Positions 7,851 through 48,914 of a DNA stretch of 64,000 nt are shown here, piece by piece. Numbering within the stretch: position 1 is the stretch's first letter; each line of letters begins with the position of its first letter. The notes below the pieces were generated by a model, which was given only the letters and a program-made list of their open reading frames with translations, ran no database searches and was not told where the DNA came from. The stretch is taken from assembly GCA_964030785.1 (NCBI GenBank), contig OZ034979.1, positions 10,766,883-10,830,882 on the forward strand, given 5' to 3'. A program made the position numbers and the translations under genes. Source of the stretch: Siderastrea siderea. Lineage: Eukaryota; Cnidaria; Anthozoa; Scleractinia; Rhizangiidae.

Positions 7851-7853
7851 ATT

Positions 7854-8060
7854 TACTAGTCCCTTATTAAAGATAATGCGTCACAAGGGCTTTGTGGATG
7901 TTTTTTGGTCAAAACTCTGCTAAAATCATTGATAGGTAACTTAACCTATGCCAACAACATTATCTTAAGCCTTTGTGCAGACATCTCCCTTGCTTCAAAG
8001 GAAGCAAGGGAAATAGGAGCCATCTGTGTGCAGGTTACATAATTATCTTTAAACATCTAG
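7854..8060. repeat. Diverged relative of the 381-bp piggyBac-like MITE
   Basis: GTCAAAACTCTGCTAAAATC and the surrounding 60-70 bp align by eye with the left part of the element at 21664-22044. The termini here are not intact. Confidence 0.45.
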
Positions 8061-8077
8061 AGGAAGGTATAAACTCA

Positions 8078-8263
8078 GGGGCGGATCCAGGAATTTCTGA
8101 AAAGGGGGGTTGCACACTATTGTAGTAACCTTTAACGCCAATGGTGTGGAAGGCGACACACCATTGGCCACCATTTAGGAAGAATCAAACAAAATAACAA
8201 AAAAAAATGCTGCTCAAAGGGGGGGTTGCAACCCCCTCAACCCCTCCCCTGGATCTGCCTCTG
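8078..8263. mobile_element. hAT-like MITE
   Basis: The ends are GGGGCGGATCCAGG and CCCCTGGATCTGCCTCTG, flanked by TAAACTCA on the left and GAAACTCA on the right (8-bp target duplication with one mismatch). Inside, 8139-8172 forms a 12-bp perfect stem, GCCAATGGTGTG against CACACCATTGGC. There is no coding content. Confidence 0.7.
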
Positions 8264-9079: not shown

Positions 9080-9470
9080 GAATGAATGGATAACTTTATT
9101 TAACCACGATCAACTCATCAGGACTTAAAAACACTATTTCTATACAAGAACTGCTATAATACATTAACATTATGACAAAACCAAATTAGACTATGAGCCT
9201 ACTTTACATAAGTTCCATGCAGAGAGATCTTCAGAAGAATTACTTGCAGCCAGCCCTGAAGGCCCCAAGAGAGTTGAATTTCACCTGTCGCAGCTCAACA
9301 TGAAGGCTATTCCAAGGAAATGCCCTAGAGTAACAAACTATTTTTCGTAAGGTTTGTACGGGGTAGAGGAATAGCGAGTTTGCCATTTTAAAGAGTAACT
9401 GGAGACATTTTAAAATAAAAAGTTGCAAAATCAGCTGTCACCAAGGGAAATATCTTTAAAAAAAAAGTTA
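9080..9470 (-). pseudogene. 3' end of a non-LTR retrotransposon (LINE) remnant
   Basis: Read on the minus strand, this encodes FPWNSLHVELRQVKFNSL followed by GAFRAGCK and a stop. That matches the conserved C-terminal WNSLP-x-ELR-x-x-x-S-L-x-x-F pattern of CR1/Jockey-type ORF2 proteins. The sequence upstream is cut off, so this is a 5'-truncated insertion. The downstream AATGAATGGATAACTTTATTT region at about 9082 (plus strand) would be its 3' end. It lies in the putative NAA20 intron. Confidence 0.55.
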
Positions 9471-11096: not shown

Positions 11097-11671
11097 TACC
11101 GTGTGGCACCAATATTTTTGCGGGAGTTTAATTTTGTGAATGGTGATTTTTTTTTTGTGTGTTTTGCAGGACTAATCTTTGCGATTGGGGAAACTGTTTA
11201 TTCTTCTTGGAATTAATTTTTGCGATTTTCCGGAAGCCGCCTTCTATTTGGAATTATAACATTCTCGTTTTTTGAGTATAAACAATCGAATGCAGGTGAA
11301 CAACATGCAGATGTATAACATGTTAAATCAGTTAATCAATGGAGTACCTTCAGACGATCCTTTTCTTTAAAGCTTTTAACAGCTTAATACTTCTAATGTA
11401 CCGACTGCAATTTCATTGCTTTATTTCTGAATGTTTTGCTTCTAATTTCGTTTTATTTTTGAACGAAAGAGACGGTTTAAGTAAATGGGCACCAACATAA
11501 TATTACATCACATGTAAAAGGCGGTTTGTATATAAATTTCGACAATGGAGTAAATTTTTGCGGAAATTATTTTTTTCCGCGGGAACTTTTTTTTGCAGAT
11601 CGTGAAAAATCCGCGAAAATCATAAAAATTTGAATCCCGAAAAAATTAGTGCCACAGTCAACCACACGGTA
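11097..11671. mobile_element. TA-flanked inverted-repeat element (mariner-like MITE)
   Basis: It starts TACCGTGTGGCACCAAT and ends TTAGTGCCAC, then ACCACACGGTA, so the ends are inverted with an internal insertion on the right. TA occurs at both outer edges. The interior is rich in TTTTTGCGG-like words in both orientations. There is no transposase. A fragment of one end recurs at 4014-4145. Confidence 0.5.
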
Positions 11672-12624
11672 TGTCAGCACGTGCGATGTTTCTGGCTTTT
11701 TTGTCAGTTTGCTACGTGACTAGTCACGCAAGACTTGCACAAGACACACAATGGCATGATCTTTTCTAACAAGGCACGCTTATTACTCGATTTTAGCCGT
11801 GTGTTCCAAAATGTAAGTCCGTGTGAAATAATGTGGAAAATAAAACAGAGCTTACCTATATATTTGTCTGGATACGGGAGTTGCCACGTTCGTCAAGCAT
11901 GATGTCACGCAAGAAGAAGACGTACGTGACTCTCAAGATCGGCTATTCTCTTCTGGTTCAAACATTACAGAATTAATTTTTGTGACAAGTTACGCTTCCT
12001 ACTAGATCCAAAATATTTGTCCATGGAAAAATATTCTTTCCATTAGAAAGCCACAAAATTAAATTTCAATCCATTGAGCTGCCGAGAAACATCTGAGAAT
12101 GAGCTTCAGAAAGGGCTGTTTTGTATTATTTTGTTTGTCCCATATTCACACTGTTGTCAGATATTTTACAGATTTTATCTCACTTTCTTCTTGTTTTGTC
12201 GTCACTTGAAGCCACACTTGTACGCATTAGCGTACCATCTATTGATCAACGACGCATACGAATTCGAAACCACTAATATAAACTCAAACATTGATCTTTG
12301 ATCACCCTCAAATCTGTAAGAAGCCCTGGGAACGAGGTTGCACAATATCGGACACAGCTCCACTTATAAGGTAAACTCTGTCTAAAGACCAATACTTTTC
12401 GAATGCTCAACGCTACTCAAATAACCAACATCACAGTAGTGTACCTTGGTACACGCACGTTCATTCAATAACCATTTCCGTACCTCTCATTGACAGCTAC
12501 AAAATAGCTCACGCACGCTTTGCGTGCCTATGTTTTTACTCATTGTACTTTGTGGAGTCAGCTTTTTGAAAACTTAATGACAGGACAACAACTATGTGAA
12601 AATCCTTTGGTCCACAAATGTTTT
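11672..12624. other. No supported feature
   Basis: AT-rich spacer with no family-level coding signal. Confidence 0.3.
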
Positions 12625-12816
12625 CTAAAAATAATAACCAGCCTCAATGTAAGCTCGTGAACTTATATTCAAGGTTACTGGGTGCTGGACTTCTTTAAAA
12701 TCTCCTGAAAGAAAAGGTTTCAAAACAAAAGAACTGTCAGGGGCTGGTATGACTGATAGAAAACTATTAAAGGTGGTAACTGTGTACAGTACATCTCCTA
12801 AGGCTTTCTGTTGCAA
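12625..12816 (-). CDS. Candidate 3'-terminal exon, unknown product
   Basis: On the minus strand a TTGCAACAG acceptor precedes 60 open codons. They begin KALGDVLYTVTTFNSFLSV and end in AYIEAGYYF and a stop at 12625. Composition is protein-like (hydrophobic/aromatic alternation, SGDFKEVQHPVTLN), but no family is recognised. It could be the last exon of a minus-strand gene starting at the promoter-like region 13635-13920, or a retroelement fragment. Phase and intermediate exons are unresolved. Confidence 0.3.
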   Translation of the reverse strand: MQQKALGDVLYTVTTFNSFLSVIPAPDSSFVLKPFLSGDFKEVQHPVTLNISSRAYIEAGYYF

Positions 12817-13634
12817 TTAAGATTAGACTCCTTTATTTAAAATTCAAAAGGGCAGCCCTTTCAAAAGTCAAAGCATCTGCCATCAATGGGAGCCCTGACT
12901 TAAATTACACAACATAACCGCTCTTCGGTCACAAAACTAAGATAGTTAAATACAGGAAGGTATTAAAAAAAAGGCAAAAAGTGATGGGAAGCACACTTTA
13001 CTAGTAACAAACACAACTGAAGTCATACAAAACTGAGTTACTTTCAACATGGAATCCTTTGGTGTAAATATGGCAACAAAATGGCCACTAAATAATGAGA
13101 CAAAACTTGCTTTACAAATTGAATAACCAAAAAGTCAATGTTTGTAAACAGTTAACATTGACTTCATGTCATTAACATTCTTCAAGCAAAACGTTTTTGC
13201 ATCTGTATTCTCACAACGTATGGCCCTTTGTGTCTTAACAAAAACTTTAACAGTCCATCGGATGGCTACAAGTTGGCAAAACTGCTAATCTAAGATCAAA
13301 CGGAAAAACTGAGCGAGATTTGCTGCAATTTAAATTTTATCAGCTACTGAAAGTATGAACTTAAATGATATTGTACTTTAAGTTATTTCAGCTGAGATAA
13401 TTCACGTTTGCCTACATGGTTTGCCAACCAGTGATTAATGGTAGGTCTTCTAAGGTGTTTTATGGTTTTTACACCTCTTTCACTCTGAGATTATTTGACC
13501 GCTGAGTGACCGCCACGGCCCTTTTAAACATCGAAGGGAAGCTCACTGATCGACTGTTATGTAGCAAAAGCTAACAAAAAGTTGCAAGCAGACTGTTTTA
13601 AAATTGTGAGTAGGATAGCTTACCTGCTTTGGTG
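12817..13634. other. No supported feature (possible minus-strand intron)
   Basis: No coding signal seen. It sits between the candidate last exon and the candidate 5' exon on the minus strand. Confidence 0.3.
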
Positions 13635-13920
13635 AAAACGGCAACAGGCTAAACGCTTACTGTCCTCCAAAACTTTGAATCCTTCCTAATTTCCTCACTT
13701 CATGGAACATATTTTCTTGCGGTGCGAAGAAAAATTCTCCCGCTCACAAATGCAAAAGCCCGAGCAAAACACTCGTTTTTCCGCGTTAAAATACTTTTTC
13801 CAAATTTCCTTCCGCTGCTGAGGAGTTAGGAAAACGTCTGGATTTGTTATATGTGCAAAAAAGGTAAGAATAAGTGATCAAGTGATGAAACCTACATCTT
13901 TACCGCAGACCGCCATCTTT
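13635..13920 (-). promoter_or_regulatory. Candidate minus-strand promoter and 5' exon
   Basis: Read on the minus strand, AAAGATGGCGGTCTGCG (about 13917-13901) is an ATGGCGG-type start element followed by GTAAAG. A clean donor, AAAGCAG|GTAAGC, occurs at 13635. The intervening sequence has only a short upstream frame. CpG density is locally higher. Together these suggest a transcription start with two alternative donors, but no downstream coding exon can be tied to it with confidence. Confidence 0.35.
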
Positions 13921-14004
13921 GTTTATTTCATTGGCGCGCACGTTTCAGGAATCTGGGTACTAGGAAAATGATTAACCAATCAGGCAAAAGTCTCCCTTGC
14001 TAGT

Positions 14005-14300
14005 TAGAGCGCTTTTCAAATGAGTGTCGTAAAACCAAAACCAAAGTAATTACCCCAGCCAATCACAACAAACACAAATTACCCAATGAACCAATCAGAA
14101 CTCGAAGCAAGTACATGTAACCGGCGTCAAGCGCGGGAAAACGCGTGCGAGCGCGAGCAAGTCGCGACTGATTGGTTTGAGTTTTACTTCTGATTGGTCG
14201 AGAAAGTGGCGCGAAAGGTGTTAACCAATCACAGAGCGAAGTAAAGCAAAACCAAAGCAAAACACGAATTACTTTCGACACTCAATTGAAAACCGCTCTA
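14005..14300. mobile_element. MITE with TAGAGCG...CGCTCTA ends
   Basis: The left end TAGAGCGCTTTTCAAATGAG and the right end CTCAATTGAAAACCGCTCTA are inverted repeats. Inside them are a second layer, GTAAAACCAAAACCAAAG, and CCAATCA boxes in both orientations. TA is present at both edges. About 296 bp, non-coding. This sequence type is abundant in cnidarian genomes (recollection, not searched). Confidence 0.75.
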
Positions 14301-15035
14301 AGAGCTGCGGGGCTACTCTAGATATGCGCTAGGCTCTGTCACGTGACAAAGAGAAGAAATCAATGATTCCACTGAAAGATCCTGTCAGACCTGAAGATAT
14401 TGAATAAAACTAAGGACCAACTGCTGGTATATAAAACAACACAGGGACAATGGATTATGAAAGCTTTCTCAGCACTTTAATTCCCAGAAGAGATTAAACC
14501 TGGGCTGGCTTGTTCAAAGGCGCCTTAAGGCAAGCATAAAATTTGAATTGTCAAAAGGTCTTGAATTAACTTTGGAACAGCTGGGTGCTGAAGAATGGCA
14601 ACCCCAAAAATAAGTTCCCCCCCAAACCCCTTCCTAAAAAAACGAGAAAAGTAAACCGAAACAATACAAATATAAGTGGGGGGGGGGGGGGGGGGGATAC
14701 CCACTTTTCCCAAACTGAGATGTAATAATTCTTCCATTAGTAAGCCACCCCGCCCCTTAAGATGGTTAACTGATCCCGTACATCAAATTTTGTTATTGTC
14801 CTGTTACCCAGCAGTTGGTCCTTAACAGTAAAGGCCATTTCGGTGTACATAGACATAAGAGCGGCGGTGCAAATTGTTGGTGTAAAATCGACTTTTCAAG
14901 TGTTGTATTTTCAATAAACTGGTAAACATCCAAACGCTAATATACATTTTTTTCTTTTGTGTTAATTTTTTTTAATCAAGATTTTGAGTTCACTGGGTTG
15001 TATCTTGACAAATTCTAACTGAAACAAGAACAGAA
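14301..15035. other. Spacer with dispersed repeat and 19-bp G tract
   Basis: Positions 14594-14670 repeat the 5886-5960 sequence (GGCAACCCCAAA, then GAGAAAAGTAAACCGAA). They are followed by a run of 19 G at 14678-14696. No gene. Confidence 0.45.
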
Positions 15036-15039
15036 AAGT

Positions 15040-15200
15040 TTGGAATGCATAAGGAATGACTGTCAACCTCGTTATCAGCATCTTTCTTTCCTAACTGGCA
15101 AAGGAAAGACGCTGTGGAGGAGATTCATCCAAACACACCCGACTAAAAATCACCCTCACCTGCTGCGCTAGGCTGTGATGTTACTGGCTGTGAAGACAGT
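15040..15200. repeat. Dispersed repeat (copy at 44021-44165)
   Basis: AAGGAATGACTGTCAACCT, AAAGGAAAGACGCTG and CTAAAAATCACCCTCA are shared in the same order and orientation with 44021-44165. Family unknown. It lies directly upstream of the Penelope-like remnant. Confidence 0.5.
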
Positions 15201-15235
15201 GGCTTCACTAACATCACGAGATCGTCGACCAATCA

Positions 15236-15410
15236 GGACAACGACCAGAGACATAACATCTACTGACGATTCACAGTTCACTTGACTCTGATGATGATTT
15301 CCGCTCAGGTTGTCGAAACGTCAGTCAATGTCACCTCAAACAGTCCTTCTCAGGACTACACTCACCCGGACGATCACAATTTACCGAATTATAAAACAAG
15401 CAAAGACAAC
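15236..15410 (+). mobile_element. Penelope-like element terminal remnant
   Basis: It contains GACTCTGATGATGATTTCCG, GTTGTCGAAACGTCAGTC and TCTCAGGACTACACTCACC. This pattern belongs to the pseudo-LTR regions of animal Penelope-like elements (recollection). CTGATGA at 15290 and GAAAC at 15318 correspond to the two conserved boxes of a type I hammerhead ribozyme, but helix II does not pair, so it looks inactive. No reverse transcriptase frame remains nearby. Confidence 0.5.
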
Positions 15411-15804
15411 AAAAGTCAAAAACAAATTTGTTCATGGGAAAAAAAGTTCAAAAGAATACTCAGTTGCCTTTTTGGTGGAAGGCGAAAAGTTCAATTTAGG
15501 CAAAAAAAAAATTAGGTGATAAAGTTCAGGCGAACAGTTCAAATTTGCCTTGTCGGTTCGGTTGCGAACTCGGTCGGCACACCGCTTGAGTTCGCAGCAT
15601 TTCGCAGCGGTTTTGACGCCAAATATAGCAGAGCTAGTGCTTTTTGGTTTTTTCTATCCACAACCATAGTTTTTACGGCGGTCCGAACATGTTTTGCCAG
15701 GAAAAACACCAGCATTCTCATGTTGGTAGGCAGCTTGTCACAAAGAAAGAAATAAGTAGTACAATTAACATTTCAGATAATAATTAGCCCTCATCACTAA
15801 CTGG

Positions 15805-15900
15805 ACTGAGCGCCAGCTTATGACGCCGTCGAGCCGGGGTTCGAGTCCTAGCAAGGACAAGAATCTTTTTTTCTTTTTTTTTTTTTTAATTTAACGACTT
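15805..15900 (+). repeat. Possible tRNA-derived SINE remnant
   Basis: GGTTCGAGTCC at about 15838 is a good Pol III B box. It is followed 20 bp later by a long T-rich run (TTTTTTTCTTTT...) that would terminate Pol III. No convincing A box is visible and the 5' part does not fold as a tRNA, so this is a truncated or decayed copy at best. Confidence 0.35.
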
Positions 15901-15989
15901 GAATGAGAGTATTTTCGCAAATTAATAAGTCCCAGCAAAAAAACAAAAAGCAAAAAACAAAAGGGGGACTCCGCTTTTAGGCTTGGCTA

Positions 15990-16316
15990 AATCTATATAT
16001 TAAAACCACTCGCTTCTTGATCAAATTCAGAGTAATACATAGCATAAGCGCAAATGGTTCGTTAACTAACTTGTACATATGCGATCCTCGTCTGTAATAG
16101 GCAATAAAAATTAATATTATTTAATATTATTGCTACAGTACTATTAGTAAGAATTAGCATATGCTAGGCTTTTTGCTAAAAGCTCTCGTTAGCGACCACC
16201 CTCTATTGTTTTACCACATGGTGGCTCACGAGAGCCCCTTCTCATAAACAACCAGCTATAGCCACGACAACTTTTCTGAATTTCCGAGGTGGTCGCTTAC
16301 GAGAGCTTCGACTGTA
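15990..16316. mobile_element. Truncated copy of the mariner-like CTCGTAAGCGACC MITE
   Basis: From CTTCTTGATCAAATTCAGAG through AGCTCTCGTTAGCGACCACC to GCTTCGACTGTA it matches the right half of the complete element at 57232-57741. The left terminal repeat is missing. Confidence 0.7.
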
Positions 16317-17043
16317 CTTCATATTTTACAGAGGGAACGTCTACCGCTGTGCAACCAATCACAACTACATTGGTTTGACATCTGTTGATTTGCAAACATT
16401 TTTAGGTATTCTTAAGGACTATTTCGTTGGGACTTAACAAGAGTTTCAAATGCATTGTAGATTCAATAGGACATCTTTCCCATTCCCATTATACGCTACT
16501 TTTTGCCAGTCCCAGTCGCCAAATCCCAGTCCCAGTGCCTCAAATCCGGATTTCCCAGTGCTAAAATAGGCAAATCCCAGCTACCATTTTACCCCTTCAG
16601 GACCCTCTTTTGATTACATTCACCTGATATTAATTTTTACCTCTTTGATACATTTTACAAAGAGATTTAAACGTGTAAATAAATCAGATGAGTGCTTCTA
16701 CTGAAACGTAAGTCAGACTTAGAAGACGGCCTCAGAAAGGAGTTCACACTACAAGTACGAACCAAGTGTACGTTAAGTGCACTTAAGAGCCTTAGTGAGA
16801 ACCGGCCTAATGTTTCGTGAAACCTTTGTGTCACCAATGCTGAGATCATTCAGAGATGACACTAGATGATTCAGAGATGACACAGCTGAGATGATTCTGA
16901 GATAACACTGGCTGAAGTTTGCACTGTTCGTAAACTGTCTACTGATCACTTGTTTATATGCAGCCACCATTGCACGGTAGTTAAGAAGAAAAGGCCTTCA
17001 TATGAACCTAGTGTGTACTGTCCTGGCAAGTTGTTGCTCAGTC
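16317..17043. other. Spacer downstream of the NLR gene
   Basis: It contains a short cluster of TCCCAGTCCCAGT words at 16505-16590. At 16845-16895 it has near-repeats of TGATTCAGAGATGACAC. No gene is supported. The 3' UTR and poly(A) signal of the NLR gene are expected near here but no specific site is called. Confidence 0.35.
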
Positions 17044-18944
17044 TCAGCCTGACTTCTGTGCACTCAAATCAGCATCTGTGCAATTCGAATTAGTAGCGCT
17101 ACGCCGATTTCTTTTATCATTTATGTCGGGATCACCAACGCCAAATGGATGTCGTGAAATGTCCTCAGTGGGCTCTTCAGGGAAAATACACTTGGTTAAG
17201 AAGATATGAAAACAGATTAAGAAGAAACTATCTCCCTCAATTATCTTCTTAGAAGACGGAGTCTCAAACGATGCCTTTGAGTATCTAGCTTCCAACCAAC
17301 GATCTCTGAGACTTCGGAAATGTGACGCCATTTCATTGTCTTTTCCTAAAAAATAGTATATTAGAATAATGTAAACAAGTCCCTTAAGTAAGTTTTCGTC
17401 ACTACTGCTGCTAAGCAAATCTACCGAATTCAAAAGAGACGATATGTCCTCATCAAGCTTGCCACAAAGTAGCTGGTGAACGGCATGATAGCATAGCAGC
17501 TTTGCCGGACAATCAGATTCACTAATGCAGCCAGCATATAAGGAATGGTCCCGGTGTCGGTCCGGAGAAAACCAGCCCGGGTGGCAAATGGATTTGGCGG
17601 CCAGCAACTGCCTTTCATCTTCCACAATTTGCCTCCTTTTTGCTTCTTGGACGGCTGTGTCATAAAGATGTTCAAACACCGCTTCAAAAGACAATAAAGC
17701 AAGGAGAAAAACTTCTGCCTTAGACAACACTTCTACAACCTTGCGGTAAAGCTCGTCATCTTTTATTCCATTGGCAAGGGATAAAAGAATACACTCCCGC
17801 TGTTCATTGAAAGTTGCATAAGCTGCACTGGAGGGACCAATTAAAAACATTTCATTAGCAGTCCTAAAACAGGAGATGTAGTAGTCATAAAACTGACGTT
17901 GTGCTGAAAGAAATACGGCTTCAACTGATTTGTCGTTACTTCTCTTCTCATCAATAAAGGACCGCAACAGTGAATGAATAGTGAAGTGGCTAAAATTCTC
18001 CCCACAGTCTATTAAGGCCTTTCGCTCCAGTGATCGAATAATTTTCTTACTTGTAAGTTTTGTTTTTACGTCTAAAATGGCTGTAGCTTCCTCTATTCTA
18101 AACCACCCAGGGAAAACGGCTAGAGACACGAACGCATTTCTCTCGCGGACGGAGAGTCTTTGAAAGGAAGTGTTAATTAAAGACTTCAGACGTACATCAT
18201 CGCGATAGCTTTCACTGTCCAAAATTTCAACGAGTGGTATACTCTTCCGTTCTTCTTGGAGGTCACTAAGAGAAATATTCTCTTCTCGCATAATACAACA
18301 CATCAATCGTACCGCCAAAGGAACTTGTCCACACTCCTTAACTACGCAACTGCGATCATTTTCCGAGACATCTGGTAACAGGAGCTTTACTAAGCTGGCC
18401 GAGGAAACCTCATCCAGTGCATTAATTTTCTCTAAATGGATGGGAAGAGTGTGGCCAAAGAAGTCTAGAGATTCACGAGTAGTTAGGAGAAGCTTGATCT
18501 GTTTGCAGTGGACAAGAATCTCGTCGATCAATCTAAACACTTCCTGTTTCCGTTTGGCATCTTCTGACTCAAGTAAGTCATCGGCATTGTCTAAAATTAA
18601 GACAAAAGGATTTTCCACTTGCTGTAGACACTGAATGAGCCAGTGAGAGGATGACATACGAGACACTTGTGAAGTGTCTACGAAAATACTAAGCAGCTTA
18701 GAGACTAGCTCCTCCTTGCTTTCCATTCCGCGAAGGGGAACGAAATATACTGGAATCTTCATATCTTGTAAGTAATGAGCAACGTTGATAGCTACCGACG
18801 TCTTCCCAAATCCTGGTGGGCCCCAGACGTTAACCAGTCTAGTGATATCATCTGTTAAATGACCAAGGATTGTCTGGCATTCTGCTTGGCGACCAACAAA
18901 GTGTGGAATGGTATCAGGTACACAGGAGTTGGGAACGAAAGGAC
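17044..18944 (-). CDS. NLR-like gene A, exon 2: NB-ARC ATPase, winged helix and C-terminal helical region
   Basis: This is the second coding exon. The acceptor is TTCTTTAAG|GTCC at 18945. Joined in phase 1 to the exon ending at 20182 it gives a 929-residue protein with no stop. In that numbering: FVGRQAE at 312-318; Walker A GPPGFGKTS at 338-346; Walker B FVLILDNADD at 410-419; sensor LLLTTRES at 448-455; GxP-type CGQVPLA at 501-507. A winged-helix-like segment (RNAFVSLAVFPGWF) follows at about 550-590, and then a helix-rich tail of about 320 residues that may be degenerate TPR. NB-ARC proteins are nucleotide-switched oligomerising signal ATPases used in immunity and cell death. The function here is inferred to be intracellular sensing. 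The stop is at 17044-17046. No leucine-rich repeats are present. A decayed paralogue lies at 45322-47125. Confidence 0.88.
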
Positions 18945-20181
18945 CTTAAAGAAAACGAAATAATGCTTTCAGTTTTACTCCGCATAATTTGGAGCCAGTT
19001 AATGGTTAAACCCCCCCCCCCCCCCCCCGCCTCGCGTCTCCAGCAAACGCCTTTATGAGCCTGACTGATCTTTCACTCCCAGCATCATGAAAACGTATCT
19101 GTGACCATGAAATGCAAGAAAAAACCCGAACTTAGGACACACAGATTAAGTATACATTTCCCATGTGATAAGCCCAGGTGTATTGGACTGTACTGGGAAA
19201 CAGATTAATGTTGAAATGTCAAGATTTTTTGTCACATAAAGGCCGGCAATTTGACAACATGTAGGGCTTATCAATTACATTTCAAGAGTATCTCGAAACA
19301 TGATCATTGCTATCAGGCGTGTTGTGTTACAAGGCTCTCGATTTATAGACTTTGTATGGGATATTCACTTTCGTTATCAAAATACTAAAATAAAGTTATG
19401 AATGGGGAAATGAACTTCACTTAACTCGACATGGGGTTGTTTTTGTGTCGTATATAATTTGGGCGCAATTTCCTGTATTGCTTTGTGATACGAGAGCGAT
19501 TTGTGGCACTCGCTCGTCTGGAGTCACCCGCATTCCTTCGTTTTAACTTTTATGTGGAGAAACAACACCGCGAACAACACCGAACCAAAAACTCGCCTAA
19601 AACGGCCACGAATTGCGCCCAAATTACACAAAAGACACAAAAACAACCCCATGTCGAGGTAAGTGGAGTTCATTTCCCATTTCTTACTTTACCAGCTCGA
19701 CAGGTCAATGAGAGTGGTCAAGTCATGTACTCAATTAATCACGTGTTCTATTTTGAAAATACACCATACCCCAGACAGCGCTGAAAAACACTATTAATAA
19801 TAAGTCAGTGGTACTAAATGCAGGCTTTCCAAAATTACGATCATTTCCAGTGGTTTTTCAATCAGAACGAAGTAACCGAAGGTTAAGCTCAGCATTTGGT
19901 AAGTTATTTCTTTGCATTTTTAGGAACCTGGATTTATTTTCTTTCGAAATTTAGTTGGGAACATAACATGATTGCTTTTAACTCAAGTGAGAAGATCCCG
20001 GTAAGGTGTTACACATTGCGTTATTCAGCGCTGTTCATCTCCTCTATTTTCTGAGAAGACAGTGGTAGACACAGCTAAGTTAAACAAAGAAGGAGGAAGA
20101 GAAGATAAAAAGGAATTAAAGCGCAAGAAGACAAAATGCATTTAGTTTGTTAAGATTAATTATAAATTAAAGTGGCTTAAC
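18945..20181 (-). other. Intron of NLR-like gene A
   Basis: Phase 1 intron with donor GTTAAG and acceptor TTTAAG. It holds an 18-bp C tract (19011-19028) and a complete 281-bp MITE (19401-19681). The homologous intron of copy B has instead a SINE. Confidence 0.75.
19401..19681. mobile_element. MITE with about 70-bp terminal inverted repeats
   Basis: AATGGGGAAATGAACTTCAC and ACTCGACATGGGGTTG on the left are mirrored by CAACCCCATGTCGAG and GTGGAGTTCATTTCCCATT on the right. The inner parts pair too (TTTGGGCGCAATT with AATTGCGCCCAAA). It is non-coding and lies in the NLR gene A intron. Confidence 0.75.
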
Positions 20182-21070
20182 CTTTTGAAGTTCCCGCTTG
20201 CATTGCTTGTTTTATGTCATCAACGTTGGCCTTTACTTCTTTCATGTCTGATCCGAATTCATCCACTTTAGTCTTCACCTCTGCTGCTGCCGTTTTTACG
20301 TCTGAACCAACTTCGTCCACTTTTGTCTTCACCTCTTTTACTGCCGTTTTCACGTCTGACCCAGCTTCAACCACTTTCCCCTTCACAGCTGTTACTGCCG
20401 TTTTCACGTCTGACCCCACATCTTTGACTTGAGACGCAATTTCATCCAGATTATCTTCGATCTGCTTAAACTTTTCTCTTCTGAGCTCTGCTTCCAATTG
20501 TTGAACCCTTGGTGTTGGGAAGTCTTTCTCATCTAGTTTTCCAATATCATCAATCTTGGTAGCTCTTTGGCCGAGTGCGACAAAGGCGTCTTTTGCCAAT
20601 TGTATGTAATTATCAAAGGTTGCCTTGACGATCTTTTGGGTACTAATCTGGTGGCAAAGAGTGTTTCGCAGCAAACGGAGCTGATCCAATGCTAAAGCGA
20701 ACGTCTCAAATTGGTTTCCAGAATGGCTGATGACAGAGGAATGGAATGTTTTCGGTTTTAAACGACGGGGTTTTACGTACAGCTTGTCTAAGGTACCAAA
20801 GCTTTTAGAAAAGAGAGTTGCTTCAAACAGAGCTGTACAGTCCCACTCTGTAAAGGATTTATTAGTCGGCACATACTTTGTCTTTCCGCCTTCCTTCTTT
20901 AGGAACATGTTCCGCACCAGTGTAGAGTCGTCCCATTGTATAAAGCCAGGTGTAGGAGCGACTTGGTTGTCCCACATGTACACAAACACCTGACGTAGGG
21001 CGACTGGAAATTCATCAAGCACAACAGAGGAGAACTTGAAGAAATTTAGTTGTTCAGGAGAAAATGTCAT
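20182..21070 (-). CDS. NLR-like gene A, exon 1: DZIP3-type HEPN domain and 18-residue repeats
   Basis: The ATG at 21070 opens 296 codons plus one base. The exon ends AAAAG|GTTAAG, and the frame also runs three codons into the intron to a stop at 20177. Residues about 35-165 match the DZIP3/hRUL138-like HEPN family, with LVRNMFLKKEGGKTKYVP and the RNxxxH signature RNTLCH at 135-140. RNxxxH is the catalytic or RNA-binding motif of HEPN domains. Residues 219-290 are four 18-residue repeats such as GSDVKTAVKEVKTKVDEV, predicted to be one long amphipathic helix. The domain order HEPN, helical linker, NB-ARC suggests an effector or adaptor domain on a nucleotide-driven switch. HEPN nuclease activity is inferred, not shown. 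A non-spliced form would be a 297-residue HEPN-only protein. Confidence 0.88.
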
Positions 21071-21342
21071 TGTTCACGGGTTCAAAGTTTGTTGAATCCA
21101 CTCAGTATAATATGTCAGATGGTAAGGTCTGAATGGTTCGTGTTCAAACTGGGTTTAACCAGAAGACTATCTGCAATAAGAAGAAAAGTAATTGCTTAAA
21201 CGTTTTCTGGTCTGGGTGTCGGAGGGGATTCAACCTCTTTGTACTAGAATCTTGATAAGAGTAGGTCACTTCCAAACTTAAATGAAATCGTGCTTAATCC
21301 AGCTTCACATATTAAATGGGTTCAAAAGGCTGGTTATAACCA

Positions 21343-21565
21343 GGGGCGACTTGGTTATCCCACATGCACACAAACACTTGACGTGGGGCTGGTGGAAATT
21401 CATCTAATACAACACGGGAAGAACTTGAAAAAATTAAGTTGTTCAGGAGATGTCGTCATTATTCAAGCGTTCAACGTTTGCTGAATTCACTCAGTATAAA
21501 TCATTTGGATGGTAAGGTCCAAATAGTTCGTGTTCTTGCCGTTTTAAACCAAGAGACTATCTGCA
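21343..21565 (-). pseudogene. Partial extra copy of HEPN exon 1 start and its upstream flank
   Basis: CGACTTGGTTATCCCACATG through TTGTTCAGGAGATGTCGTC repeats the first 40 or so codons and the 5' flank of the exon at 20182-21070 (about 20953-21180), with frameshifting changes. It then continues into TCACTCAGTATAAATCATTTGG, which matches copy B better than copy A. It is therefore a third, fragmentary HEPN start, probably from a local tandem duplication. Confidence 0.7.
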
Positions 21566-21663
21566 ATAACACTTTGTGGACTGGGGCGTTGGGTGTAGGA
21601 GGGTGGTCATTTTCCAAACAATGGAAAATAGACGGAATCCTGCTCTAACTTTAAACCCTTTAA

Positions 21664-22044
21664 AGGGGCATAGTCACGAGGATTTCACAGATTTCTGGTC
21701 AAAACTGTGCTAAAATTATCGGTAGCTAACTTTTTCCATGCCCAATTGTGTTTGAACATTTAGACGAACATATTAACTCAATTTCATTAAGAGAAAACAA
21801 ACCACAACCATTTAGTATCGATTTAATGTCAACACGCTGAAAGAATTTGAAAAGTTTAGCCTAATTTTTCAAATTGTAATCCATTTCAATCCGTGCCATC
21901 CGTAGCAACAGACGACAGAAAATAGTTTCAGTGAAGTAATATAGTCTTTGGTAACAAAACTAGACCATTATTTGTGGGCGTTCATTGATACGAGGACATA
22001 TTTTTGACTTTTAAAGTGAACTAAAATAGCGTGACTATGCCCCT
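21664..22044. mobile_element. 381-bp piggyBac-like MITE
   Basis: Perfect 15-bp inverted ends AGGGGCATAGTCACG and CGTGACTATGCCCCT are flanked by TTAA at 21660-21663 and 22045-22048. TTAA duplication is diagnostic of piggyBac-type (and some Kolobok) transposition. There is no coding content. A diverged relative lies at 7854-8060. Confidence 0.8.
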
Positions 22045-22235
22045 TTAAGCCCTAACAGTGACAAAAATGAATTTTCTCTTTACAATATCAATACTTGTTA
22101 TGACATTCAAGTCATGAGAAAACCAAGGATGAGATGTCTTGATATTTAGACAAATTCTCCGTACTGGTTCCATAAGAAACATATAGAGAACTTTAAGGAT
22201 AATATGCATGTTTATATCAGGGCTTAATGGGTTAA
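22041..22235. mobile_element. piggyBac-like MITE, CCCTTTAAGCCC family (copy 2)
   Basis: It begins CCCCTTTAAGCCCTAACAG and ends GGGCTTAATGGGTTAA. It shares its left TTAA with the right end of the preceding 381-bp MITE, so the two elements abut. It is homologous to 3266-3490 and 53809-54013. Confidence 0.65.
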
Positions 22236-22302
22236 AATGATTTTTAAATTAATAATAAAAATCGGTTTAAAAAGGCTGGCAAATAGTCAACTAATACCAA
22301 AA

Positions 22303-22383
22303 TTGTGCCACGAGACCAGCGGTCGGGTAACGTGGGCTCGTTTTTTAGAGCCCACGTTTTCCGACCGCTGGTCTTGTGGCACA
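22303..22383. repeat. 81-bp near-perfect hairpin
   Basis: TGTGCCACGAGACCAGCGGT on the left is mirrored by ACCGCTGGTCTTGTGGCACA on the right. The stem continues through CGTGGGCTC/GAGCCCACG to a loop of about seven bases (TTTTTTA). It sits immediately upstream of a CRE and a promoter-like ATG. Confidence 0.8.
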
Positions 22384-22480
22384 GTTTGACGTCACGGACA
22401 ATTCAAAATGGCGGCGGGCAGTGTTGAGTTTTGGCCCTCTTTGGAGAGGAATTTCAGTGGGACCAGATGCACTTTAGAAG
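22384..22480 (+). promoter_or_regulatory. CRE-containing promoter-like start with candidate first coding exon
   Basis: TGACGTCA (22387-22394) is a full CREB/ATF site. Fourteen bases later AAAATGGCGGCGGGC starts a frame reading MAAGSVEFWPSLERNFSG (ATG 22408) with six more codons to a GTAAAA donor at 22481. It is absent from the homologous position of duplicated unit B, so it was inserted there or lost here. No family is recognised. The exon ends in phase 1, as does the acceptor of the candidate exon at 28905-29000, so the two could belong together. Confidence 0.4.
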
Positions 22481-23319
22481 GTAAAACCACGGTCAGTAAC
22501 TCAACTTAGTGTTATCTTTTTATTGGCGATTTCAAAAAATACACCGTTTCTGGAGTGACCTTCTCCTTGAAAAAATGAAAAGTTAACAGCATAAACAGAA
22601 TAGTTCAGTCCTGAAGCAGCTGTCTCAAAGCAGTTAAAAAAAATTTTCTTCCTCACTATTTTTTGAGCCCAAATATTGCTTTACAAGCTTTCAAAGTTGA
22701 CGAGCTCCGCGTCAAATTTTCAATAGAGAAATCCGCTTGTTCAATTAGTGATCTTGGTGAATTCCTATTCTATGACGTAGTGTTGTCAGGAAAAAACGGA
22801 TTCTTTCCTCTAGATTTCCTCAAATTTCCTGTTGATAATATTCCGTGAAAATTGGCACATAGATTAGACGTAAGACCAATTTTTACGTAGCAGCAACAAC
22901 AACAACAACAAAAAACAACAACAAAAAGCAAACAAACAAACAAACAAAAACAAAATTGCAAATAGCAAGGAACCTGCCTAAGCAAACCACATTTTTCGGC
23001 ATTAAAAGTCTCTTCTGGTTAAATTATATATACTGTGAAAATTTGGGAAGATTTCACTGAAAGAAATTGAAGAAAATCAAAACCAACGCCCTAAGCACAC
23101 TGCAAAAACCCAAGTTTGGGCGCATTTAATTCAACACTTAAACCCACTTTTTTAACAGTGATGGTTGTAGAACAAACTTCTGTTGTTGTTTGTTACATTT
23201 TGATAGTGTTGTGTGAGCTAGTAGAAAGAAGAATGAGAAAATTAGTTTTTGATGGACAGTGCTGGTGCATACCACGCCATCAATAATAACCCCGTGAAGC
23301 AACCTAGACTCTTTTTTCA
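22481..23319. other. Spacer with (CAA)n / (CAAA)n microsatellite
   Basis: Positions 22889-22955 are a CAACAA then AAACAAAC array. No coding exon is recognised. Confidence 0.4.
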
Positions 23320-24720
23320 ACTGAATGGGCTTATTGACCCCTGTTGTGATCGGGTTCATAATTAATGAAAATACTTCCTTTCGATCAATTTTGAGTTGGA
23401 AGTAGTTTTGTTACAACATTCTTGACTCGTCCGGGTTAGGTCTTGTTGGGTACTTTTCTTCATAGAACTATTGAGGACAGATTGCTATAACATAATGCGT
23501 CACATATGAGGGAATCCGATAACCAAGAAACACAAGATAAGCAAATCTGCCCCCTGCTCTCCCCTGCCCCCTCCCCACCATTCTTGGTGAAGTCGATGCT
23601 ATACAACATTAATTGCATAGCTTGCTACACTGATGTTTGTACCGTCACCATCATCGTCATCATCATCATGTCCTTCATTTAAATGCGATAAAGATTTCAA
23701 AGCAAAATGCTTGTGTGGTCGTGTAATATACAGGGTATACATTAAAATTAGATACAGTACCTAACTACGATAATTCTCCTAAGAATAATATTCAATAAGA
23801 AATTTGGAAAAATACAATGTACATATGAGATTTAAAAGAGGTGAAAATATAGACACTATAGAAAAACAACTCTTAACCCTTGGCCGATTACATGAGCCAA
23901 ATTGCTGAAATGCTGTATTAGGGACCGATTACATGAGCCAGGCTGGCCCAGTTAGCCAGGTTGGCTTTGTTTGCCAAGATGTCGACAGGTCTGTTTTTAC
24001 ACCAAAAATCAAAGTCATAATTACATGTACATGGAAAATCTCAGCCTGGCTAACCAGGATCCCAGTATTGCAATACTGGGATTCTGGCTAGCCAGGCCGA
24101 AAATCTGCCATGTAATTGCTTTTGCTGGACCAGCCCAGCCAACCAGTCTAACACTTTCTTGTGCCTAAATTTTGATTTAGAGCAAAATTGCTCACCAGTT
24201 AGTTGACATTTCTCTTTCTATATAACTCATGAAGGTTTATCAGACCATAAAACTGAACAAAACAGAAAATAGTGCACCAAAATGATGGCATAATGAATCG
24301 AAGTAAAATCACTCAATACACTGTCTTTAATGTAGCAATCTTTTCTCATGATAGCTTCAAAATTTAGCCACAGCCAGACTGGCTCGCCTCATGTAATACC
24401 GGGTTGAACAGTCATCTGCAAACCAAGCTAGCCTGACTAACTTTAGGGCCCACTTAGCTCATGTAATCCACTTTTAATCCCGTTATTACATGAGGTGAAG
24501 CTGCCTCAGGGTAAGGCTAAATTTAGACACTGTTGTGGCAACAACGGCTGAGGAGAATATCCCAGTATCATGGAGATCCGGTGATAAAAGGATCCCTGCT
24601 GAATGGGCTGAGATTTTTGGTGTGTAACAGACATGCCAAGATCCCGGCAAACCGAACCAGCCCAGCTAAGCAGACAAGCCCTCCTGAAGTAGGCTTTTAC
24701 CAATATTTCTAGCACTTTTT
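23320..24720. repeat. Upstream part of duplicated unit A
   Basis: It is collinear with 49388-50432. Shared words include GTTTTGTTACAACATTCTTG, GATTACATGAGCCAGGCTGG and GCTGAGGAGAATATCCC. From 23880 on it consists of palindromic AGCCAGGCTGGC and CATGTAAT words in both orientations, so it may be a transposon carried in the duplication. No gene. Confidence 0.65.
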
Positions 24721-25925: not shown

Positions 25926-26943
25926 TAATAATAATAATAATAATAAAATATTTATATAGCGCCAATATCCTAAAAGTTCAAAAGCGCTTTACAGTAAAAA
26001 CTTAAGACTAATAAAAAATGTTGCTAAAAAGTTATAAAAATGCTTTTTTAAAAAGGAAAGTTTTAAGTTTATGTTTAAAACGGGACACTGAGGAGCTGTT
26101 CTTGATGTCAGAAGGCAGAGTATTCCAGAGTGTAGGAGCTGCCACGGAGAAAGATCTTGCGCCATATGTTTTCAAATTGAAATGCGGAATTGAAAGAAGG
26201 TCTTTTGAAGATGAACGTAGCTGACGAGGTGGAGTGTAAGGAGTAAGAAGATCGCGAACGTATGTAGGTGCCAGATCGTTTAGAGCCTTGTACGTGATGA
26301 GTAGAATTTTAAAGATGATGCGATAATTAACAGGAAGCCAGTGGAGATTTAACAAAATAGGTGTGATGTGTTCGTGTTTTCTTGAGAGGGTAATGAGACG
26401 AGCGGCGGCATTCTGGACGTGCTGTAACTTTTTTATTAGACAGTTCGGTAAGCCATAGAGTAAAGAATTGCAGTGATCCAATTTTGAAGATACAAACGCA
26501 TGAACAAGTATTTCAGTAGTGGTGGATGACAGGTACTTTCTTATATTGCTGATATAACGGAGATGATAAAAAGATGATTTGCAAATACTTGCAATATGCT
26601 CATTGAAACGAAAATGATGGTCAAAAATGACACCAATATTTCTTGCTTTCTGCGAGGAGCGGATGGTCTCATTGACGACAGAGATTTCTTGAAGGATTGG
26701 TCTCGGTAGATGTTTAGCGGAGATCACTAAAAGTTCAGTCTTATCTTTGTTCAGTTTAAGACGATTAACCAACATCCAGTGATCAATCTCGTGTACACAG
26801 CGCTCAATGTTGGACACAGCTAAATCCCTATCACCGGGTATAGTTGGCTGAAAGGACAGATAAAGTTGTGAATCATCAGCATAAAAATGATAACTCAAGT
26901 TGAATTTCTTAACAATGTCAGAAAGGGGTGAAGTGTAAAGCAT
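25926..26943 (-). mobile_element. 5'-truncated CR1/L2-like LINE
   Basis: On the minus strand the element ends in a (TTA)n tail (25926-25946 on the plus strand is AATAATAAT). It carries the C-terminal half of a reverse transcriptase. CR1/L2-type LINEs end in short microsatellites rather than poly(A). The upstream RT half is missing here. A piece of RT N-terminal sequence lies in opposite orientation at 27116-27240. Confidence 0.85.
26032..26943 (-). pseudogene. LINE reverse transcriptase, C-terminal half
   Basis: A 303-codon open frame. FYADDSQLYLSF at residues 20-31 is the catalytic F/Y-x-D-D box. Next comes NRLKLNKDKTELLVIS, then ARNIGVIFDHHF. The thumb-type motifs are LDHCNSLLYGLP and LHWLPVNYRIIFKI, and APTLWNTLPSDI closes the C-terminal region as in CR1-like ORF2 proteins. 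The N-terminal endonuclease and RT fingers are absent, so the copy cannot be autonomous. The open frame is still free of stops, indicating a fairly young insertion. Confidence 0.85.
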
Positions 26944-33981: not shown

Positions 33982-34038
33982 AAATGTGGGAAATGCCCAC
34001 CAGGCAGTAAGAATTATACGCTCAAAGAAGAAAAGGAA

Positions 34039-44860: not shown

Positions 44861-45321
44861 GAGTAGATAGCGGTCAAAATATGCTTTTTATGACTCATAA
44901 CGGTGTTTTATTTTTCTGCAAAAGCCTGATCATTAGTGGGTTAAAATAAACGATAAAATGCCCTAAAAACTACCCTGGTTGTTAAAATAATATAAATCCC
45001 ATAATTAACTGTAAAATTGCACGGTTCTAAATAGACTAAATGTTTGCAGTGTCTACACCGTCATAAACTCCCAACCGTTTTTTCGGCTCCAAAGCTCTGT
45101 GAAACACTTTGTCGGCTTCACTTGCATTTCCCATTCAACCAAATTCGAACGCAGGAGCTCGACGAAAGGGAATAGCTCACTATCCACCGATAGATTCATT
45201 CCCTGAAGCACCAATTACAATGCATGAGAACCCCACCGAGGTCGCGAAATCATGGTTATCCGAAATGGGAAGTTTGCATTAAGCAACAGTATGTTCGCGA
45301 AGCGTTGAACTGGAGGATCTG
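44861..45321. other. Spacer downstream of NLR copy B
   Basis: No gene seen. Confidence 0.3.
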
Positions 45322-47125
45322 TCAATGCCTCTGGCCACAGATATACCAGATCCTGATCACAGCGCGAAACATTTTAGGTAATTTGATGAAGAAAATGCCT
45401 AAGAAAGGATCTTCCTCGATCAAAGTTGCGTTAAAATCTTTTTCAGGAGACTGATCCTCAAACAGCACTGCCCATGGTGACCTAGCTTGAAAAAAACTAT
45501 AACCGAGACTTTGGAAATGAGACACCATTTCATCGTCTTTTCCTTCCAGATAGAAAGCCATCAACATGTAAACAAGTACCTTAAGTAAGTATTCGTCACT
45601 ACGAGTGCTAAGCAGATCTATCGAATTCAAAAGAGACGATATGTCCTCGTCAAGCTTGCCACAAAGTAACTGGTGAATGGCATGATAACATGGCAGCTTT
45701 GCTGGACAATCAGATCTACTAATGCAATCAGCATACAAGGAGTGGTCCCAGTGTCGGTCCTGATAAAACCAGCCCCAAAGGCGAAAGGATTTGGCAGCCA
45801 GCAAATGTATTTCATCTTCCACAATTTGCCTCTTTTGTGCCTCTTTCATCGCTACGTCATAAAGATGTTCAAACAGCTCTTCATCAGAAAATAGTACGGT
45901 AAAGAGAAAAAATTCTGCCTTAGACAACTTATCTACAACCTTGGGGTAAAGCTTATCATCTTTTATTCCATTAGCAAGGGACAAAAGGATGTACTCCCGT
46001 CGATCAATGAAAATGTCTGCAGCTTGTTTGGAAGGACCCATTAAAAACTTTTCATTAGCAGCCCTAAAACTCGAGATATAGCAGTCAAAAAACTGATGCT
46101 GTGCTGAGAGAAATATGGCTTCAACTGATTTGTTGTTGCTTCTCTCCTCATCAACAAAGGACCGCAGCAGTGAATGAATAGTGAAGTGGGTAAAATTCTC
46201 CCCACAATCTATTAAGGCCTTTCGCTCCAGTGATCGAATAATTTTCTTGATTGCTGGCTCTGTTTTTACGTTCAAAATGGCTGTAGCATCCTCTATTCTA
46301 AACCACCTAGGGAAAACAGCCAGAGACACGAACGCATTTCTCTCGCGGATGGACAGTCTTTGAAAAGATGTGTTAATTAGACACTTCAGACGTTAATCAT
46401 CACGAAAGTTTCCACTGTCCAAAACCTCATGGTAAACTCTTCCGTTCTTCTAGCAATATTTTCTTCTCGCATGATACAACACATCAATCGAATGGCCAAA
46501 GGAACTTGTCCACACTCCTTTACTATGCCACTAAGATCACATTCCGAGACATCTGGTAAGAGGAGCCTCACTAAGCTGGCCGAGGAAACTTCATCAAGTG
46601 CATTAATTTTCTCTAAATGGATGGGAAGAGTGTGGCCAAAGAAGTCTAGAGATTCACGAGTAGTTAGGAGAAGCTTGATCTGTTTGCACTGGACAAGAAT
46701 CTCGTCGATCAATCTAAACACTTCCTGTTTCCGTTTGGCATCTTCAGATTCAAGTAAGTCATCGGCATTGTCTAAAATTAAGACAAAAGGATTTTGCACT
46801 TGTTGTAGACACTGAATGAGCCAGTGGGAGGATGACATATGAGGCATTTGTGAAGCGTCTACGAAAATACTAAGCAGCTTTGAGACTAGCTCCTCCTTAC
46901 TTTCCATTCCACGAAGGGGAACGAAATGCACTGGAATCTTCAAATCTTGTAAGCGATGTGCAACGCTGATGGCCACGGAAGTCTTCCCAAATCCTGGCGG
47001 GCCCCAGACGTTAACCAATCAAGTGATTTCATCTTTTAAATGATCAAGGATTGCCTGGCACTCTATCTGACGACCAACAAAGTGAGGAATGGTATCAGGT
47101 ACACAGGAGTGGGGAACGAAAGGAC
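45322..47125 (-). pseudogene. NLR-like copy B, exon 2 (NB-ARC), disrupted
   Basis: It is collinear with 17044-18944 and keeps the same acceptor (CCTTAAG... at 47126), Walker A GPPGFGKTS, LLLTTRES and GQVPLA. It is broken. A TGA (47019-47021) replaces the arginine codon that lies six codons before the P-loop glycine in copy A. Around 46384-46455 two small deletions remove the segment after REENI and shift the frame, with a stop at 46386. The downstream part (46329-45322) is open again and carries SLAVFPRWFRIEDA and the helical tail, but diverges from copy A at the C-terminus. It cannot make the full protein. Either it is a pseudogene or, less likely, only fragments are expressed. Confidence 0.85.
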
Positions 47126-48121
47126 CTTAAAGAAAACGTTTGCTTTTAGTTTTACTGTACATAATTAGGTGGTTCTTAATAATTAACCCATCAAACTATT
47201 TGCCACGGTGTTATTTAAAATGAAAGTGTCGTAAAGCATCGCGATTCACCTTTCTAGCTCCCGTGCCAACGTTATCATGTACGAGCCTTTGGCGTCATAG
47301 AAACGTATTTGGGACCGTAAAATACACTGCTTAGCGCACGGCAACAGAGGCGCATAGGCACATCAAGTTAATGTAAATCCATAAATAAAGGGGATGGTCT
47401 GTCTCCCGCAGTACGTTTACCACCTATTGCTGCAAAAGCTAGCCAAGCACAATGCACGAATGTAGCGGGAAGGCGTGGGTTGAGAATGATGAGTATTGTT
47501 ACGTCACGATCTTTCTGTCACACGAAGGCCAGCAATCATATGGGGCTTTTTAATTGCATTGGAAAGTTCCTTACATACCAAAAGTAAAACATGAGTTGTC
47601 TATCTCCCGTACCTTCTGATAAGATAATGGTAACCCCAATTAAGTTAGCTCAGCTAGACAATGTCGGCGACGAAGATAAAGACGAAAAAGAAAAGGAAGA
47701 ATGAAATGTTCATTAAAAACACGGGCTGGGGCGCGGTGGGGCGGGGTGGGGCGCGGTGGGGCACGGTGGTTTAGTGGTTGGCGCGTTGGCCTTGAGATCT
47801 GATGGTCGGTGGTTCGAAGCTCAGTCCCTACCATCGTCTTGTTTCCTTAGACAAGAAACTTCACCCCACATTGTCTCTCTCCACCCAGGTGTATAAATGG
47901 GAACCGGCGACATACTGCTGTGGGTAATCCTGCGATGGACTAACATCATATTTAGGGGGGTGGGGAGAGTAAAACTACTCAGTTGCTTCATGCAACAGAA
48001 ACCGGGATAAGCTCCGGCCGTGTGGGCCTCCTTAGCTCGTGTGCGACTTTACGGCCCTTCCTAAGTTCTTTAGTTATAAAAATTTCAAATGACTAACAAT
48101 TAAAAAAAGTGGATTAACCTT
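47126..48121 (-). other. Intron of NLR-like copy B
   Basis: Position and phase equal the copy A intron. It holds a SINE with a GGGGCGCGGT microsatellite at its head (47729-48085). Confidence 0.65.
47729..48085 (+). mobile_element. tRNA-derived SINE (copy 1)
   Basis: The head has a tRNA-like A box (GGTTTAGTGGTTGGCGCGTT at about 47768) and B box (GGTTCGAAGCT at 47811). The body includes GTATAAATGGGAACCGGCG, GGGATAAGCTCCGGCC and GTGTGGGCCTCCTTAGCTCG. It is preceded by a (GGGGCGCGGT)n array. A reverse-strand copy at 54310-54612 shares the head and body, proving a dispersed family transcribed by Pol III. Confidence 0.85.
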
Positions 48122-48914
48122 TTGAACTTCCCGCTTGCATTGCTTGTTTTATCTCATTAACGTTGGCCTTTACTTCTTTCACGTCTGACCCAACTTCATC
48201 CACTTTTGTTTTCACGTCTGCTGCTGTCGTTTTTACGTCTGACCCGACTTCAATCACTTCTGTCTTCATATCTGTTACTGCTGTTTTGAAATCTGACCCG
48301 AGTTCATCCACTTTTGTCATCACATCGTTCACGTCTGATCCCACATCCTTGACTTGAGAGGCAGTTTCATCCAGATTATCTTCGATCTACTTAAACTTTT
48401 CTGTCCTCAACTCCTCTTCCAATTGTTGAACCCTTGGTGTTGGGAAGTCTTTTTCACCTAGTTTTCGAATATCATCAATCTTGGTATCGCTTTGCCCAAG
48501 TGCGACAACAGCGTCTTTTGCCAATTGTATGTAATTATCGAAGGCTGCCTTGTCAAGCTTTTGAGTATTAATCGGGTTGCAAAGAGTGTTTCGCAGCAAA
48601 CGGAGCTGATCCAACGCTAAAGCGAGCGTCTCAGCTTGGTTTCCAGAATGGCTGATCACTGAGTGATGGAATCTTTCGGGTAATAAGCGACGGGGTTTTA
48701 CGTACAGATTGTGTAATGTACCGAATCCTCCTTTTCCGTCTGGCATGGCAAAGCTTTGGGCGAACAGAGTTGCTTCAAACAGAGCTGTACAGTCCCACTC
48801 TGTAAAGGATTTATTAGTTGGCACATATTTTGTCTTTCCGCCCTCCTTCTTCAGGAACATGTTCCGCACAAGTGGTGAGTCGTCCTTCAAGCGTTCAAAG
48901 TTTGTTGAATCCAC
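48114..48914 (-). pseudogene. NLR-like copy B, exon 1 (HEPN and repeats), disrupted
   Basis: It matches exon 1 of copy A from the DDSxLVRNMFLKKEGGK segment on. The first 45 or so codons, including the ATG, are deleted: the 5' flank (GTTTGTTGAATCCACTCAG) is fused directly to the exon body at about 48897. The HEPN signature RNTLCH of copy A is RNTLCN here, removing the key histidine. A TAG (48387-48389) replaces a glutamine codon after the EKFK segment. An extra GKGGF segment (MPDGKGGFGTL) is present. The repeat tail keeps three full 18-residue units and one shortened unit, and ends SSKG at the same donor position. Confidence 0.85.

Follow-up and report, generated by a model that had tools for sequence, protein, structure and literature searches.

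The 64-kb stretch of DNA from the coral Siderastrea siderea analysed here (the window; C14:10766883-10830882 in a genome of 831 Mb and 402 contigs) carries on its minus strand a gene, designated gene A (17044..21070), in which a HEPN-like domain and an NB-ARC-type STAND ATPase are joined in a single spliced frame; this combination, proposed in an initial annotation of the sequence, is supported by profiles, fold, motifs, and the splice junction. By sequence comparison, gene A is a TPR-less derivative of the coral HEPN-NB-ARC-TPR family. Its kind and architecture are already known; new here, as far as the alignments go, is a TPR-less, constrained family member with an intact sister nearby. Gene structure, junction, NB-ARC fold, motif conservation, TPR loss, and purifying selection are supported by comparison or prediction. 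The reading put forward, with about an even chance of being right, is that gene A encodes a working NLR-like STAND protein of 929 residues, whose HEPN ribonuclease (RNase) is gathered by an NB-ARC switch and whose TPRs have been lost.

Gene structure and splice junction

Exon 1 (20182..21070, minus strand; 889 nt) encodes the HEPN-like domain (approximately residues 1–180) followed by 18-residue coiled repeats, and exon 2 (17044..18944, minus strand; 1901 nt) encodes the NB-ARC-type STAND ATPase with winged helix, helical domain, and a short tail. Between them lies a phase 1 intron of 1237 nt (18945..20181, minus strand; GTTAAG...TTTAAG). The frame check agrees with the initial annotation in the coordinates and in the phase 1 join of 20182 to 18944, with no internal stop; the 930 codons given there include the stop codon, leaving 929 residues, and the two motifs it named, RNTLCH and GPPGFGKTS, are both found in the joined frame. 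Its description of the gene as intact holds for the open frame but not for the domain content, since gene A is without the family's TPR array. When donors from about 20150 to 20400 and acceptors from about 18780 to 19500 were scanned, 62 pairs were open, and only 20182/18944 gives 929 residues and suits the relatives. The start codon suits them too: 81 of the 120 listed exon-1 open reading frames (ORFs) begin MATFSLEQLNFFKF, and most others begin with a close variant (counts of outside homologues of exon 1 refer throughout to the 120 matches listed; P-numbers denote such outside proteins or ORFs, and L-numbers copies of exon 1 in the same genome).

Fourteen stretches around exon-1 copies were retrieved from the genome for comparison. 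The junction was inspected in both window copies (gene A and a second copy, paralogue B) and in 11 of these, and later copy by copy in 12 of the 14, giving 12 distinct genomic copies plus the two window copies (n = 14). All 10 inspected copies having a recognisable exon-2 start share the acceptor TTTAAG/GT (A, B, L021, L022, L023, L024, L026, L030, L031, and L033, the last with a weaker match); no recognisable exon-2 start lies near the exon-1 copies L025, L029, and L032. P0001, which is 1424 residues long and encoded on a JGI contig of 6672 nt, is 99.8% identical to paralogue L030 over residues 1–419 and 99.4% over residues 419–1424, and the match breaks exactly at the junction, where the genomic copy has a 638-nt intron and P0001 is continuous. 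We read P0001 as a spliced transcript from this species or one very near to it; the alternative reading is a processed retrocopy. The junction is spanned by 16 of the 120 listed homologues: six are gapless there (P0001, P0007, P0008, P0009, P0014, and P0065), seven have insertions nearby, and three are short of a few residues. Since the genomic copies, the comparison of P0001 with L030, and the junction-spanning homologues agree, the junction is taken to be real; gene A has the two-exon, phase 1 organisation of its family and, on these alignments, appears to be a genuine coral gene that is spliced.

The ATPase, the missing TPR array, and constraint

The motifs of exon 2 were assessed in an alignment of 51 sequences, some of them exon-2 pieces too short to reach the TPRs. 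The P-loop GPPGFGKTS (18796..18822, minus strand) keeps its lysine in all but one of the 37 sequences that have a residue there (36/37), and FTIHSLLRSF (17956..17985, minus strand), which we take to occupy the place of the MHD motif in NB-ARC proteins, has its histidine in 49 of 51. The Walker B aspartate (51/51), the TTR arginine (49/51), and the GxP proline (51/51) are similarly conserved, and the set P-loop, Walker B, sensor arginine, GxP, and MHD-like histidine, which we presume to be that of NB-ARC proteins, is complete in gene A.

Whether the ATPase is called NB-ARC or NACHT depends on the method. Pfam prefers NACHT: exon 2 alone scores 15.4 bits against PF00931 and does not reach the cut-off of 23.5, yet clears those of NACHT (36.7 versus 26.7) and AAA_22 (37.3 versus 27), and at E<=0.01 PF00931 matches 30 of the 51 relatives and NACHT 44. 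The fold prefers NB-ARC. The predicted exon-2 model scores 27.0, 26.9, and 26.4 against Apaf-1/NRC structures versus 16.7 for the best NACHT structure, with two other STAND entries intermediate (8bob, 24.3; 6mfv, 23.2); its nucleotide-binding domain, helical domain 1, and winged-helix domain are thus nearer to Apaf-1/NRC, and the NACHT assignment was rejected. A search of PDB sequences with exon 2 returned none at E<=0.01.

What gene A lacks is the C-terminal TPR array of the family (TPR_12 in 29 of the 51 aligned sequences), presumed to be the sensing part of its relatives. A TPR exon further downstream in the window was rejected on the basis of tblastn, in which the C-terminal 400 residues of each of 26 relatives with TPRs found no match in 1–17043 at E<=0.05; with TPR-bearing relatives as queries, tblastn did detect a TPR remnant downstream of paralogue B (45039..45134, minus strand). 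The comparison is clearest with the intact paralogue L024 (C14:10831100-10841000; 1624 residues after Met). DNA homology is strong to 17244 (87.7%) and continues as a weak alignment to about 17158, after which about 89 nt at the place of the TPR array (17069..17157, minus strand) are unmatched where L024 has about 1.27 kb. It restarts at 17068 with the retained family C-terminus and 3′ flank (16912..17068, minus strand; 73% identical), the last codons before the stop reading LSAQKSG in gene A and LSAQKSD in L024. This break and restart imply that gene A has lost about 1.2 kb, the TPR array included. Many coral NACHT/NB-ARC genes missing one end are suspected annotation errors (PMC10236652); the missing sensor of gene A, unlike these, is real at the DNA level.

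The tail at 17069–17243 has no other match among the retrieved genomic loci, and a query of exon-2 residues 535–632 matched P0003 alone (1 among 33 candidates). P0003 (94%) and P0004 (91%) are the closest of the listed proteins and also end before any TPR; both are known as ORFs only, the further contig sequence being outside view.

Constraint was estimated as dN/dS, the ratio of nonsynonymous to synonymous substitution rates. Gene A versus L024 gives 0.278 for the HEPN part (202 codons) and 0.334 for exon 2 (528 codons; 0.233 for its first 240 and 0.436 for the remainder); gene A versus paralogue B gives 0.416. With L030 as outgroup, the nonsynonymous to synonymous counts are 55:42 on the gene A branch and 52:53 on the L024 branch (Fisher p 0.33), and gene A is therefore not detectably looser in its evolution than intact L024.

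Decay is nevertheless common in the surroundings. Paralogue B (45322..48885, minus strand) is a pseudogene with in-frame stops, a frame change, and RNTLCN for RNTLCH; its start region is missing, the first 46 codons having no match there. In-frame stops likewise interrupt L022 and L026, and in L023 stops occur within the TPR-coding part. A stub of a third copy (21342..21569, minus strand), comprising a duplicated exon-1 5′ end with upstream sequence, lies about 388 bp upstream of gene A, and L027 matches only residues 2–177. In L021 (C14:10733400-10743300), an open exon 1 is followed by a match to just 48 ATPase residues and then immediately by a TPR fragment, most of the ATPase being gone.

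A decaying relic, in which TPR loss left a sensorless receptor whose open frame has yet to gather stops, is accordingly a possible, if doubtful, account of gene A. It would suit the broken C14 copies (B, L022, L026, L023, and L021), the unlikeness of the tail among gene A, P0003, and P0004, and the weak donor of gene A described below. The 929 open codons with their retained motifs, the polarised substitution ratio that does not differ from that of L024, and the fact that P0003 and P0004 are likewise open to an end before any TPR all argue the other way. Weighing against a working protein, however, is that the constraint seen in these comparisons may largely predate the TPR deletion.

Other arrangements occur elsewhere in the genome. 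L034 and L032, both on C7, have an exon-1 homologue followed by TPR-coding sequence, with no match to the gene A ATPase exon at E<=1e-4; these are HEPN-TPR arrangements, L034 having stops in exon 1. At least 129 exon-1 matches are listed across the genome, many being separate repeat pieces of one gene, and they sit at C14:10.58–10.85 Mb and on C7, C2, C5 (groups near 4.2–5.5 and 53.1–53.4 Mb), and C8.

The HEPN-like domain and the question of a short isoform

RNTLCH (residues 135–140; 20651..20668, minus strand) is an Rx4H motif and has the form of the HEPN catalytic motif, Rx4-6H usually with N after R. Its arginine is found in 38, its asparagine in 39, and its histidine in 38 of 39 aligned sequences. 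Of the 120 exon-1 ORFs listed, 114 contain R-N-x3-H (one has RNTLCQ instead, and five were not located by pattern) and 112 have a locatable exon-1 end, so that the resemblance within the exon-1 family goes beyond chance. The pattern R....H is kept in 19 of 20 loci of the genome, the single histidine loss being pseudogene B. Profile scores are lower than these counts might suggest: PF18738 (HEPN_DZIP3) gives 17.5 bits on exon 1 alone and, as the sole family matched, 17.6 bits on residues 1–190, against a gathering cut-off of 27. Three of four relatives trimmed to the latter part also match, all below the cut-off, and one does not; at E<=0.01 the profile matches 16 of 39 relatives (best E 1.1e-4). 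The domain is hence filed as HEPN_DZIP3-like and not as a member. The profile check suggested by the initial annotation, here on single exons, therefore went only partway, in that both PF18738 and PF00931 matched but each below its cut-off.

Structural comparison of exon 1 is less informative. Foldseek with the predicted model gave no match at E<=0.001, and the model fits solved HEPN RNase structure poorly; AbiF, which we take to be a HEPN protein, is the sole HEPN RNase recognised among the best 50 rows, a comparison that excludes nothing. A search of PDB sequences gave one match (E 0.043). The HEPN region of gene A lacks nine residues that B and L024 have, as does that of P0006. The repeats form a 54-nt (18-residue) array (20240..20430, minus strand) of three overlapping 83-nt copies at 54-nt spacing, and exon 1 of L024 would, judging from exon lengths, be longer by about 15 repeat units. 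Pfam matches on the repeat region (PEP_C, EzrA, apolipophorin, etc.), all listed below cut-offs, were judged to be coiled-coil look-alikes.

By analogy with known families, we infer RNase activity, oligomerisation, an immune role, and a helper role for the gene A protein. ATP-driven gathering of HEPN domains is suggested because of the switch described for STAND proteins, in which the sensor has a part in holding the resting state (PMC7583971). The NB-ARC core would oligomerise in an ATP-dependent manner, with the coiled repeats as spacer; the oligomer would bring HEPN domains together into an active ribonuclease, and this could degrade RNA when the cell is infected or under stress. Lacking TPRs, the gene A protein would sense no ligand itself, and it would probably be recruited by full-length paralogues, as a helper, or be partly self-active.

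The HEPN domain might instead be a non-catalytic docking module, an adaptor signalling by assembly alone. This overlaps both with a working protein and with a relic, and is considered unlikely: the weak HEPN resemblance (17.6 bits) and the poor match of the exon-1 model to the solved HEPN RNase would favour it, but the R, N, and H are near-invariant, with pseudogene B the sole histidine loss among the 20 genomic loci, and DZIP3/hRUL138 is entered as 'Mostly conserved' in what is presumed to be the active-site column of PMC3710099.

The initial annotation also proposed a short isoform made by intron retention. Its predicted product of 297 residues is borne out by the sequence; the stop, placed there three codons on, is in fact the very next codon once the split glycine codon has been read (GGT TAA), the TAA (20177..20179, minus strand) lying inside the donor GTTAAG. 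Among the 112 listed exon-1 ORFs with a locatable junction, three stop at once and 109 continue for 1–83 codons, most commonly with KS (62/112), pointing to a donor that begins GTAA (GTAAGT, for example). Of the 14 copies in the genome, seven stop immediately and the other seven read 5–46 codons on. Those that stop immediately all lie at C14 10.65–10.84 Mb and have T at donor position +3, the cause of the stop (GTTAGT in five, GTTAAT in B, GTTAAG in gene A); within the C14 cluster, seven of 10 copies stop at once and the three at 10.58–10.60 Mb read five codons on. On sequence grounds, the seven donors fit descent from one donor variant. The gene A donor agrees with consensus at 6/9 positions, the weakest of the seven, as against 8/9 in the five GTTAGT-type paralogues.

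A regulated switch, in which retention frees a 297-residue HEPN-plus-repeat protein acting without the ATPase, is thus without positive evidence and very improbable. The immediate stop in all seven GTT-donor copies, the weak gene A donor, and a polyadenylation-type signal at 19938 in the intron are in its favour, as is a report of intron retention as the leading mode of alternative splicing in Acropora digitifera, although at 12 and 48 h a different mode is said there to have come first (PMC6335708). A functional stop, however, should have been kept by relatives, and most of those listed do not keep it. The stop merely follows from the T at donor +3, about 4.7% of 716 G/GT sites on the minus strand stop within one codon anyway, and the signal, the only one of its type in 1.2 kb of AT-rich intron, is uninformative. 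Among titles met on intron retention in corals, none concerned the HEPN-NB-ARC family. More improbable still is that TPR loss made a stand-alone HEPN RNase switch with its output set by splicing at the weakened donor, the spliced form being a self-assembling HEPN-NB-ARC helper and the retained form free HEPN-plus-repeat subunits, recruited or inhibitory.

Neighbouring elements and relation to known systems

The gene A intron contains an inverted-repeat element resembling a miniature inverted-repeat transposable element (19397..19686, minus strand), whose 53-nt arms are 91% complementary and, in a BLAST of 15001–23500 against the window, match only each other; it is not in the alignable parts of the paralogue B intron. 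A long G run lies near 19015 in the same intron. Elsewhere in the window are two long ORFs of 738 and 1103 codons (31765–37350, plus strand), which we take to be retroelement-like, a reverse transcriptase fragment (26032–26943, minus strand; PF00078, 22 bits, below cut-off), a DUF3504 domain (50379–50834, minus strand; PF12012, 62.3 bits), and a dispersed repeat (16001–16316 and 57449–57743, 76% identical), the first copy of which lies near the 3′ end of gene A.

In corals, HEPN-NB-ARC/NACHT proteins form a greatly expanded family that resembles immune receptors. In nine named species of 15 cnidarians, DZIP3-like HEPN is the commonest NACHT partner, leucine-rich repeats (LRRs) aside, with 17 to 83 DZIP3-like HEPN-NACHT proteins in anthozoans (PMC8260672). 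Many N-terminal DZIP3-like HEPN domains are reported among coral NACHT/NB-ARC genes, with TPRs mainly accompanying NB-ARC and tandem duplication named in the title (PMC10236652), and the DZIP3/hRUL138 HEPN family occurs fused to NACHT and to TPRs and is expanded in Nematostella (PMC3710099). An innate-immune role has already been proposed for the combination of HEPN with NACHT/NB-ARC (PMC8260672, PMC10236652), and by family such a role is plausible for gene A. In the available parts of the coral literature on this family, no test of its output was encountered, and a small literature search turned up no comparable genes without TPRs other than the truncated ones in PMC10236652. Gene A and intact L024, a few kb past the window end, form a natural pair for asking what role the TPRs play and whether HEPN is an RNase effector.

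Compared with the NB-ARC cell-death switches Apaf-1 and CED-4, gene A has a HEPN-like head and not a CARD, and there is no sign of caspase recruitment. The plant helper NLRs NRC1 and NRC2 have a coiled-coil head and LRRs, both of which gene A is without, and a helper role for it is offered only as a hypothesis. Pearl oyster DZIP3/hRUL138-like proteins share the HEPN head with Rx4-6H (194/202 there), its fusion to an ATPase, there NACHT, and a lineage expansion, reported for HEPN-NACHT (PMC9646362); they differ in being molluscan and in having NACHT where gene A has NB-ARC, and the HEPN of gene A falls below the Pfam cut-off. Closest are the coral HEPN (DZIP3-like)-NB-ARC/NACHT-TPR proteins, which gene A resembles in domain order and in tandem clustering (PMC10236652, PMC8260672). 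Copies L002–L020 of its own genome are 47%–87% identical to gene A in exon 1 and have the same intron position where examined; unlike the coral HEPN-NB-ARC/NACHT-TPR proteins, gene A has no TPR array and has the donor GTTAAG.
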